Source: Actinomycetota bacterium (GTDB lineage Bacteria > Actinomycetota > CADDZG01 > JAHWKV01). Taken from it: DNA of 11,119 bases. The DNA is taken from NCBI GenBank assembly GCA_019347725.1, contig JAHWKV010000012.1, positions 1 to 11,119 on the forward strand, read 5' to 3'. A program made the translations under genes and the position numbers. The stretch's first letter is position 1, and each line of letters begins with the position of its first letter. Below are positions 4,886 through 7,188 of this stretch, one piece after another. The notes below the pieces were generated by a model. The model had not been told where the DNA came from and ran no database searches. It saw nothing but the letters and a program-made list of their open reading frames with translations.

Positions 4886-5397
4886 CCCATCTGTCCGGGG
4901 TCCCGGTCCAACAGGAGCCGGAGGGGGGGACCGGTAAAGCTATGGATAAGGCTATGCGCCTGCTGGGCTTTCGTTCCCGCTCCCGCCATGAGATAGCCCA
5001 GCGCCTGCTCGATTCCGGGTTCGGGGAACCAACGGTAGCGGTCGTGGATGCCCGCCTGTGTGAGCTGGGCTTGTTGGATGACGTTGCGTTTGTCCGTGAG
5101 GTGTGCCGGTCCAGGAGTCGGGCGGGATGGTCATCGACGCGTATAGACCGGGACCTTCGTTACCGCGGGGTCGCAGACGACGTTATAGAGGACGGTCTTG
5201 CCGAGTTGGAGCAGGCGGGCACATCGGATGGGGATCGAGCCTTGAAGTTGGCACTGGCCAAGGCCAGAAGTTGCCGTTCGATCGCGCCGGAGAAGGCGCT
5301 GCAACGCGTGGTTAGGCACCTGTACGCAAAAGGTTACGAATCCGAGTTGGCGTGGGAGGCAGCGCGCGCGGCTTTTCGCGAACTTGACCAGGCGTAG
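4882..5397 (+). CDS. recX: RecX, regulator of RecA
   Basis: The 171-residue product follows recA with a GTGA overlap (4882-4885) and shows the all-helical RecX pattern. It has three-helix repeats beginning with [20 protein letters not shown] (residues 24-43) and continuing through [16 protein letters not shown] and the tandem repeat-like [14 protein letters not shown] and [19 protein letters not shown]. RecX proteins bind RecA filaments and limit their growth or activity, so coupled expression with recA balances SOS output. The start is uncertain: the overlapping GTG at 4882 is favoured by coupling, while an ATG at 4942 would still keep the whole conserved region. A G-rich patch at 4919-4928 lies too far from that ATG to be a good ribosome binding site. 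No residues are visibly missing. The strong downstream promoter begins four bases after the stop. Confidence 0.9.
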
Positions 5398-5400
5398 TGA

Positions 5401-5429
5401 TTGACCCTCCTCCGGCCCGAGCATAATAT
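5401..5429 (+). promoter_or_regulatory. Promoter of the rny leader / small RNA
   Basis: TTGACC (5401-5406, 5 of 6 to consensus) and TAATAT (5424-5429) are separated by 17 bases, starting four bases after the recX stop. The expected transcription start is about 5436, at the first bases of the closing helix of the downstream structure. That coincidence supports the promoter. Confidence 0.55.
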
Positions 5430-5435
5430 TTAGAA

Positions 5436-5636
5436 GCCGGCCTAAGGAAGGTTTACGTCAGCCAACGGCTTAAAATTGAGTTAAGTACTGAAAAAGTCCG
5501 CTGTCAGACATAAAGACATGAGGTTGAGGGATAGATAACTTGCGGGAGGAGCTACGACTTTTACGAAAGTAACCGCAACGGCAGTCTACCCCGCAACTTC
5601 ATGAACCTTCTGGCCGAGCATGTGCTCGGTTTTTTT
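5436..5636 (+). ncRNA. Structured rny leader or discrete ~200-nt RNA ending in a terminator
   Basis: The two ends of this segment pair: CGGCC (5438-5442) with GGCCG (5612-5616), and after a bulge GAAGGTTTA (5447-5455) with TGAACCTTC (5602-5610, one G-U). Inside are AGCC/GGCT (5460-5470), ACTTT-TACG-AAAGT (5557-5570, a UNCG-type tetraloop) and TTGCGGG (5540-5546), which can pair with CCCGCAA (5590-5596), with CCGCAA (5573-5578) or, through GCGG, with CCGC at 5498-5501. These choices exclude each other. CAACGGC occurs twice (5463-5469, 5576-5582). The outer helix shares bases with the 5' arm of the terminator at 5614, so forming one would weaken the other. This is what a transcription attenuator or riboswitch looks like; a free-standing small RNA is equally possible. 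I compared it from memory with the common riboswitches and 6S RNA and cannot name a family. Confidence 0.45.
5614..5636 (+). terminator. Intrinsic terminator upstream of rny
   Basis: CCGAGC (5614-5619) and GCTCGG (5624-5629) form a six-pair GC-rich stem with an ATGT loop (seven pairs with a two-base loop is also possible), followed at once by seven T residues (5630-5636). This is a textbook rho-independent terminator. It ends 16 bases before the rny ATG and 6 before its AGGAGG site, so rny transcription from upstream requires readthrough or antitermination. Confidence 0.85.
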
Positions 5637-5652
5637 GTGTTGAGGAGGCCCA

Positions 5653-7188
5653 ATGCCAACTGACGTACTACTCGGAGTTGTCGGCCTTCTCGTCGGTGTC
5701 GGAATTGGATTCATTCTCTATAAACAGGCTGCCGGGCGCAGCGCGGTAACCGCGCAAGCCCGCGCGCAGCAACGCCTGGTTGAAGTCGAAGAAGAAGCCG
5801 AAAAGAAAACGCGTGAGGCGCTGACCCAAGCCAGGGAAGAGGCGTTGCGCATCCGGCAAGAAGCCGAAGAGGAGGTCAAGCAGCGCACTGCAGACGTGCA
5901 ACGCAAGCAGGTGCGTCTTGAAAAAAAAGAAACCACGTTGGAGCAGATGGCCCAACGGTTGGAAGACAAAGAACAATCCGCCGTCGAGCAGCAAAAGCAG
6001 CTCAGCGAGTTTCGCAGGCAGCTCGACGAACTCGCCTCCAAACAAAAGGCTGAGGTGGAACGGCTGGCCGGGATGTCTTCGGCTCAGGCCAAGGAGCTTG
6101 TGATTGCATCCGTGGAGAATCAAGCCAAGCGTGATGCCATGACCCTGGTGCGCGATATAGAGGCACGGGCTCGTGAAGAGGCTGAACGCAGGGCTCGAAA
6201 GATCGTGGCGATAGCCATTCAGCGGGTGGCAAGCGAAGAGACCTCGGAGAACTCGATCTCCGTGGTTACGTTGCCCAATGACGAGATGAAGGGCCGGATC
6301 ATTGGACGGGAAGGTCGCAACATCCGCGCCTTTGAATCTTGCACGGGAACCAGTTTGTTGATCGACGACACACCGGAGTCGGTGGTGCTCAGCTGCTTCG
6401 ATCCGATTCGCCGGGAGATCGCCAAACTCACGCTGGAGAAGCTTGTGGGGGACGGGCGTATTCAGCCGGCCCGGATCGAGGAAATGTACGAGAAGTCCCG
6501 CACCGAGGTGGAGCGCACCATAGTGGAATCGGGGGAGTGGGCCGCCATGGAGGTCGGTATTCCAGATCTGCATCCGGAGATGCTCAAGGTCTTGGGGCGT
6601 TTGAACTACCGGACCTCCTATGGCCAGAACGTGCTGAAGCACTTGGTGGAGGCCGCCCACATTGCAGGTGTCGTAGCCGCCGAGCTGGGTACCGACATAG
6701 CGCTGTCCAAGCGGTGCACGTTGCTGCACGACATCGGCAAGGCCATCACTCACGAGGTAGAGGGTTCGCACGCCCTGATCGGCGCCGAGCTTGCCCGCCG
6801 TCTCAATGAGTCGCCTGCCGTGTGCCACGCGATTGAAGCTCACCACAATGAGGTGGAGCAAAGAACACTGGAGGCGGTCATCACCCAGACGGCCGACGCC
6901 ATCTCGAGCGCCCGACCAGGAGCCCGGCGTGAGGCTCTGGATACGTATGTGAAACGGTTGCAGCGGCTGGAGACGCTGGCGGAGTCGTTCGAGGGCGTGG
7001 ACAAGTGCTACGCCATGCAGGCCGGGCGTGAGGTGCGGGTTATGGTGCACCCCGATGCCGTGGACGACCTGCAGGCCGAGGTACTGGCCCGCGACATAGC
7101 GAAGAAGATAGAGGAGGAGCTGCAGTACCCCGGCCAGATCAAGGTCACGGTGATTCGGGAGCACAGAGCCGTGGAATTCGCTAAGTAG
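5653..7188 (+). CDS. rny: Ribonuclease Y
   Basis: RNase Y (511 residues) is a membrane-anchored endoribonuclease that starts mRNA decay. All regions are present in order. Residues 5-24 form an N-terminal membrane segment. A long charged coiled coil rich in Glu, Lys, Gln and Arg covers about 30-175. A KH domain (about 205-270) carries the GxxG loop in IIGREGRN (216-223). An HD domain (about 325-425) has H330, H336, the HD pair H359-D360 in LLHDIGKA, and the later HH in IEAHHNE. The C-terminal domain ends with the family hallmark YPGQIKVTVIRE. Length is normal. AGGAGG at 5643-5648 lies four bases before the ATG. The coiled-coil part uses more A-rich codons than its neighbours, explained by its Lys/Glu/Gln content. 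An intrinsic terminator just upstream suggests transcription attenuation or a separate RNA. The recA-rny adjacency is typical of Firmicutes; here recX and the leader lie between. Confidence 0.98.
   Translation: MPTDVLLGVVGLLVGVGIGFILYKQAAGRSAVTAQARAQQRLVEVEEEAEKKTREALTQAREEALRIRQEAEEEVKQRTADVQRKQVRLEKKETTLEQMAQRLEDKEQSAVEQQKQLSEFRRQLDELASKQKAEVERLAGMSSAQAKELVIASVENQAKRDAMTLVRDIEARAREEAERRARKIVAIAIQRVASEETSENSISVVTLPNDEMKGRIIGREGRNIRAFESCTGTSLLIDDTPESVVLSCFDPIRREIAKLTLEKLVGDGRIQPARIEEMYEKSRTEVERTIVESGEWAAMEVGIPDLHPEMLKVLGRLNYRTSYGQNVLKHLVEAAHIAGVVAAELGTDIALSKRCTLLHDIGKAITHEVEGSHALIGAELARRLNESPAVCHAIEAHHNEVEQRTLEAVITQTADAISSARPGARREALDTYVKRLQRLETLAESFEGVDKCYAMQAGREVRVMVHPDAVDDLQAEVLARDIAKKIEEELQYPGQIKVTVIREHRAVEFAK

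Follow-up and report, generated by a model that had tools for sequence, protein, structure and literature searches.

The interval between recX and rny in a genome of the Actinomycetota carries a predicted promoter, a folded RNA and an intrinsic terminator, which, judged from sequence, probably act together as a transcription attenuator of rny. The gene encodes RNase Y, the enzyme that initiates mRNA decay in many bacteria. Attenuation is supported since a promoter lies 5' of the terminator, no space remains for another one, and rny genes of many families are preceded by this arrangement, which is hardly ever seen at other genes. The preliminary description of this DNA had suggested either attenuation or a riboswitch-like control of rny. 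The recurrence of the part order before rny speaks for the former, whereas the latter lost ground, with neither an Rfam class nor a shared interior motif among the rny leaders.

Architecture and conservation of the rny leader

The window, i.e. the whole stretch of 11,119 nucleotides that was analyzed, stems from a genome (G000) of 64% completeness. By family models it contains pgsA, a LigT-type phosphoesterase gene, recA, recX, rny, miaB and miaA; two further translations we take to be those of cinA and dapF. An open reading frame of 165 amino acids on the minus strand (278–775) has a signal-peptide-like start, and Pfam returned nothing for it at 1e-3. Among named records, the rny that ranked best comes from an Actinomycetota MAG and shares 56% identity with that of the window. 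The element occupies the interval from the recX stop at 5397 to the rny start codon at 5653; its parts and the gene that follows are:

5401..5429, plus strand: predicted sigma-70-type promoter TTGACC (5401–5406)-N17-TAATAT (5424–5429), from sequence, scan and conservation in the order
5436..5636, plus strand: predicted leader RNA of about 200 nt in its terminated form, from folding and a match of model R1 at 5436–5636
5438..5453, plus strand: 5' strand of the outer helix P1 (CGGCC, GAAGGUU), predicted antiterminator, from pairing in the order's leaders and a deletion test
5457..5509, plus strand: predicted hairpin P2 (GUC..CA-CGG / CCG-UG..GAC), from a hand alignment of the order's leaders
5517..5603, plus strand: predicted hairpin P3, base CAUGAGGUUG (5517–5526) with CAACUUCAUG (5594–5603), tip unconserved, from a hand alignment of six f1 leaders
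5604..5616, plus strand: 3' strand of P1, overlapping the 5' arm of the terminator by GGCCG (5612–5616), from sequence and hand alignment
5612..5636, plus strand: intrinsic terminator GGCCGAGC-AUGU-GCUCGG-UUUUUUU, from the scan and the conservation of its stem before rny
5653..7188, plus strand: rny (RNase Y) with KH and HD domains, TIGR03319 above cut-off, Pfam RNase_Y_N, KH_1 and HD

The predicted promoter begins four bases 3' of the recX stop, as described earlier, and transcription is expected to start near 5436. A scan of 5390–5700 recovered this site (in two frames, with 0.1 promoter-like sites expected from shuffles) as well as two terminator-like sites including that before rny (0.3 expected). 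Across the whole window, terminator-like sites numbered 17 against 9.5 expected, and promoter-like sites 2 against 1.7. Since the latter occur at chance frequency, the promoter assignment rests on position and on the -10 box conserved in the order rather than on score. A likely ribosome-binding site, GAGGAGG, lies in the 16 nt between the terminator and the rny ATG. This spacer is too short to hold a further promoter, so that transcription of rny must pass the terminator.

In the outer helix, CGGCC (5438–5442) pairs with GGCCG and GAAGGUU (5447–5453) with AACCUUC (5604–5610). The 205-nt RNA folds with -64.6 kcal/mol (z -2.37), and 5 of 200 shuffles were equally stable. The sequence features of a structured RNA of about 200 nt, closed by distant strands and ending in a terminator that shares bases with the closing helix, are present as the preliminary description had proposed. 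Its further suggestion of mutually exclusive partners for TTGCGGG (5540–5546) held in part: the complementary strands exist (5573–5578 and 5590–5596), but TTGCGGG itself belongs to the tip of P3, whose sequence varies among the order's leaders, and the proposed switch was therefore given no weight and dropped. A leader peptide was also considered; inspection of the printed sequences by eye revealed no small open reading frame common to the order's leaders.

Eight genomes of the order were available, seven of them with an uncut leader; in the eighth (G003) a contig end truncates the leader (L004), and model R1 matches another piece of it on contig C215. The terminator precedes rny in all eight genomes and the leader RNA is present in 7/7 uncut leaders, in which the -10 box, a GCCGG start and the terminator are conserved. 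The -35 box TTGACC is clear in the complete leaders of the window's family (f1) and unclear in the two f2 leaders. For the six other complete leaders fold z values of -2.80, -0.01, -2.61, -2.49, -1.50 and -2.89 were obtained; the leader of G004 is no more stable than its shuffles.

P1 pairs in 7/7 leaders, with changes on both sides in 0/5 pairs of P1a and 2/5 of P1b. A shuffle test of this pairing in the seven leaders gave weak values (p 0.04–0.43). In the lower part of P2 all three pairs vary on both sides (18/21 cells paired); the upper part is nearly invariant (0/5, 32/35 cells paired), and P2 of G006 deviates from the others. The order's leaders share conserved nucleotides in P2. P3 varies on both sides in 5/10 pairs with 56/60 cells paired, counted in six f1 leaders including G003, the f2 leaders being unalignable here. 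As P1, P2 and P3 were aligned by hand, these counts are biased towards structure, and the near-invariant P1a and upper P2 contribute no covariation. RNAalifold on a MAFFT alignment returned the terminator and a GCCG-CGGC pairing only, with no pair changed on both sides.

The terminator before rny beyond the order

Seven leaders of the order served to build model R1, with which 149 genomes of the window's phylum were searched blind. The model recovered the leader at the rny loci of all eight order members searched. Outside the order, 21 matches were found at E <= 1, 13 of which lie on the same strand 40–89 nt upstream of rny and 8 do not. Three of the 13 span the full model (G099, E 2e-4; G078, E 7e-4; G041, E 0.11), and the others cover its terminator end alone. 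Among 15 R1 matches whose loci were fetched, rny follows directly 3' in 8. In the fetched loci besides the eight of the order, 3/69 matched at E <= 1 with the terminator only, two before rny (L051, L087) and one elsewhere (L057).

The pattern GCCGAG-N3-12-CTCGG-NN-TTTT occurs 45 times in the 149 genomes, 25 times at 17–113 nt upstream of rny and 20 times elsewhere. The sole other match in the window's genome (G000:C112:937-958, minus strand) lies away from rny.

For a survey of the phylum, 114 regions upstream of rny from 33 families were compiled: 110 genomes less five with gene start or contig end problems (G026, G074, G130, G131, G134) gave 105, to which nine order and class genomes were added; G019 was left out owing to a split gene. 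An intrinsic terminator was present within 200 nt of rny in 58/114 (23 families) and not found in the remaining 56; a CCGAG..CTCGG stem occurred in 35/114 (15 families). The complete order promoter-terminator-gene was observed for 43/114 rny genes (18 families) and for 0/79 other open reading frames of the fetched loci (Fisher 2.9e-12). The distribution is uneven: in f3, the sister family that makes up the rest of the window's class, none of the 15 regions examined has a terminator before rny, and in f13 one of 12 does.

Similar observations were made for 80 named rny records (L032–L111), which are mostly Bacillota by their titles. With a stricter test, from which L051 was omitted, the order was found for 19/79 rny genes and for 2/819 others (Fisher 1.8e-19 and 2.5e-9). 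The CCGAG..CTCGG stem lies within 200 nt of rny in 13/80 loci, including Actinomycetota-titled (L032, L051) and Bacillota records (L041, Desulforamulus aeronauticus; L087, Syntrophomonas zehnderi), and forms part of 9/26 terminators before rny compared to 2/283 elsewhere. In four Bacillaceae loci (L072, L079, L086, L088) no terminator before rny was found. Species are possibly shared between the two sets. Since loci are also related by descent, all Fisher values given here overstate independence and the family counts are the fairer measure.

Some leaders differ in the stem or lack the U-tract. The f3 leaders (L009–L023) share, within up to 300 nt upstream of rny, a TACCAT -10 box and a GGTACGAACGA-like strand, followed in their 3' part by a TCGTACC-like strand and a GC hairpin without a T-run. 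The two ends appear complementary by eye; GC hairpins without a U-tract were excluded from the terminator count. The f3 leader is possibly a relative that lost or never had the U-tract. In L043, L058 and L083 the terminators 45–102 nt upstream of rny share a different stem, AGCTGTGT..ACACAGCT, in place of CCGAG..CTCGG. In L051 and L078 a GCCGAG..CTCGGC hairpin is conserved upstream of rny without a proper T-run, possibly a sign that the stem has a role besides termination.

The 5' end of the leader and alternative readings

Cross-group comparisons covered 56 leaders sorted into 29 groups; 16 of these are families and 13 consist of one named record each, with some relatedness among them. Leaders with a promoter below 9/12 were excluded from the pairing, interior-motif and folding tests, a threshold that drops both f2 leaders and G003.

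In family f20, AUUUUUGCC has its pairing partner in a GGCAAAAAU-like strand 8 to about 20 nt past the predicted start; the terminator GCCGAGC begins with the GCC of AUUUUUGCC. The same layout occurs in the window (CGGCC/GGCCG), in L032 and in G051 of f24 (GGCGCU/AGCGCC). Over the 29 groups, 5' ends pair better with their own leader than those of other groups do (mean rank 0.19 with 0.5 expected by chance, Wilcoxon 2.8e-5), and the reciprocal control with exchanged 3' strands gave 3.1e-5; for G096 the hairpin used here differs from that in the survey. A shuffle test of the 5'/3' pairing over 35 loci was mixed (summed z -5.4, promoters mispicked for L006 and L007), and the cross-group control is the better of the two. 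Where the terminator base reads GCC, 20/41 leaders have GGC within their first 14 nt, compared to 1/15 of the others.

Partition-function folding pointed in the same direction for part of the leaders. In the window, the basal terminator pairs form with a probability of 0.16 in the intact leader and 0.99 after removal of the first 30 nt; a 30-nt deletion in the interior leaves the value at 0.16. Group means of terminator formation were 0.76 intact, 0.96 without the 5' 30 nt and 0.72 with the interior deletion (p 0.001 for 5' removal against the intact leader, p 1.2e-4 against the interior deletion). Considered one by one, 17/56 leaders from eight families, that of the window and 16 others, go from below 0.5 to above 0.9 upon 5' removal, 30/56 form the terminator at >=0.9 regardless of the 5' end, and the remaining 9/56 show intermediate or other behavior. 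Within f1, G000 and G002 rise from below 0.5 to above 0.9, G001 from 0.67 to 0.99 and G005 from 0.66 to 0.97; in G004 the terminator stays unformed (0.02 to 0.06). In f20, 7/8 leaders rise from below 0.5 to above 0.9. These predicted folds support an antiterminator role of the 5' end in the window's leader and in f20, not in general.

An Rfam search returned no match at E <= 5 to the stretch before rny, in agreement with the earlier remark that no known riboswitch class was recognizable. Among the rny leaders, riboswitch, T-box and leader classes all stayed below their gathering scores, and the 6S models gave no match, although divergent 6S RNAs could escape them. A known RNA class was rejected, the weak matches being far under the cut-offs (SorY, for example, 25.7 bits against 111). 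The interior yielded no convincing motif over the 29 groups; the best five-letter word, ATAGA, is present in 17/29 with 9.3 expected. Without an outstanding interior word or an Rfam class, one common ligand is unlikely. Seven of the eight f20 leaders (L121, L122, L131, L130, L134, L149, L154) carry ACATAGA or ACATAAA about 40–50 nt into the RNA, where by eye it falls within a loop closed by TTTAGTTTT/AAAACTAAA.

These results bear on the other readings of the locus. The strongest competitor, which we nevertheless consider rather unlikely, is a fixed partial terminator that sets the level of rny, with P1 protecting the 5' end and nothing being sensed. The 30 leaders in which predicted terminator formation does not depend on the 5' end would fit it; the frequent GCCGAG..CTCGG stem before rny and the GGC near the start in leaders with a GCC terminator base would be left unexplained. 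A metabolite riboswitch with P1 as closing stem and an expression platform of the ON type could account for the overlap of the terminator with the 3' strand of the closing helix and for the P2 nucleotides conserved within the order, but is highly improbable in view of the Rfam result and the interior without a motif common to the 29 groups. A lineage-specific sensor in the leader is conceivable.

The alternative of an independent small RNA was already raised in the preliminary description; its gene could be 6S-like or encode a regulator that acts in trans. The terminator would then lie 5' of rny by chance, and rny would be transcribed by leaky read-through or from a recA-recX operon. Many small RNAs have a closing helix between their 5' and 3' ends and finish in a terminator, as does the RNA described here, and the P2 sequence is common to the order's leaders. 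Rfam, on the other hand, contains no matching small RNA, the terminator precedes rny in many families that have no interior in common, and the distance from the terminator end to the gene match is just 19–25 nt in f1 (60–66 nt in f2), so that rny would still need read-through. This dependence on read-through weakens the proposal, and a separate gene is improbable; the terminated product of an attenuator could additionally act in trans.

Related systems and a possible autoregulation by RNase Y

Among the closest known likenesses is the rimP-leader (Naville and Gautheret 2010, PMC2965389), described in the main text of that work as a terminator with a conserved GGGc..gCCC stem in many bacteria. 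Its authors propose recognition by NusA, the KH-domain protein of the operon, and the main text describes no antiterminator for the rimP-leader in general. Shared with the rny element, as far as this text goes, are the leader terminator of a conserved gene, the unusually conserved stem, the lack of a larger conserved sensor, and a candidate KH-domain protein of the operon, RNase Y itself carrying a KH domain. Set against that description, the rny element has a different stem (GCCGAG..CTCGGC), a different gene and, in part of its leaders, a predicted 5'-end antiterminator; with stem and gene both deviating, membership in the rimP-leader family was rejected.

In Bacillus subtilis, too, rny is transcribed from a promoter of its own and preceded by a long leader, of 164 nt, and RNase Y cuts this leader and autoregulates, according to PMC10303841; PMC10578586 cites a sigma-A promoter for this gene and the mapping of its start site. 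In PMC10303841 control is described as cleavage of the mRNA in the open reading frame and leader, and the word terminator is absent from its text. In the same text RNase E of E. coli is reported to bind a stem-loop in the rne 5' UTR, which expedites cleavage elsewhere in the mRNA. There, too, an RNase that starts decay limits its own synthesis via a leader, but termination plays no part in that description. Terminated riboswitch leaders accumulate upon depletion of RNase Y, according to PMC3542257. No terminator or attenuator before rny was reported among the literature matches listed, as far as titles and abstract openings tell; rny is absent from the main text of PMC11109978, and the main text of PMC2965389 contains none of the words ymdA, ribonuclease and RNase; the supplementary family tables of that work may still list rny.

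The arrangement of strands also resembles a familiar regulatory logic. When riboswitches of the ON type use a terminator as platform, the helix that closes the leader takes bases of the terminator 5' arm, and closing favors read-through. The closing helix of the rny leader likewise uses these bases; the difference is that rny leaders have no cross-family aptamer core and no Rfam match. We file the rny element as a putative new attenuator family. Its kind is known, but the stem is unusually fixed, and part of its range has a predicted 5'-end antiterminator.

For the preferred reading as an attenuator the following course can be proposed. Polymerase would initiate near 5436 and either stop at 5612–5636, releasing an RNA of about 200 nt, or read through into rny. 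The 5' end (CGGCC..GAAGGUU) and the 3' arm of the terminator would compete for the base of the terminator's 5' arm; a closed leader would then favor read-through, and loss of the 5' strand would favor termination. The leading candidate for a trigger is RNase Y, described as membrane-bound in B. subtilis: it may cut within the long interior during synthesis of the leader, whereupon the 5' strand would be gone, the terminator would form and rny would be shut down. Alternatively, the KH domain of RNase Y might recognize the conserved terminator stem, by analogy to the NusA proposal for the rimP-leader. Either way, RNase Y would regulate its own synthesis through the leader.

Since an antiterminator formed by the far 5' end of the transcript would be lost by any intervening cut, read-through could report RNase Y activity. 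The leader would then be a direct meter of this activity, with a cut anywhere in the interior of about 150 nt removing the antiterminator. We put forward this idea tentatively and regard it as rather unlikely. If true, two or more phyla would have an ancient feedback loop that responds to the activity of an enzyme rather than to a ligand; an intact tether would suffice and no conserved aptamer would be required. That rny is preceded by a nearly invariant terminator sequence in two phyla or more suggests an ancient control of RNA decay at the level of transcription, for which the integrity of the leader as the sensed quantity may offer a simple mechanism.
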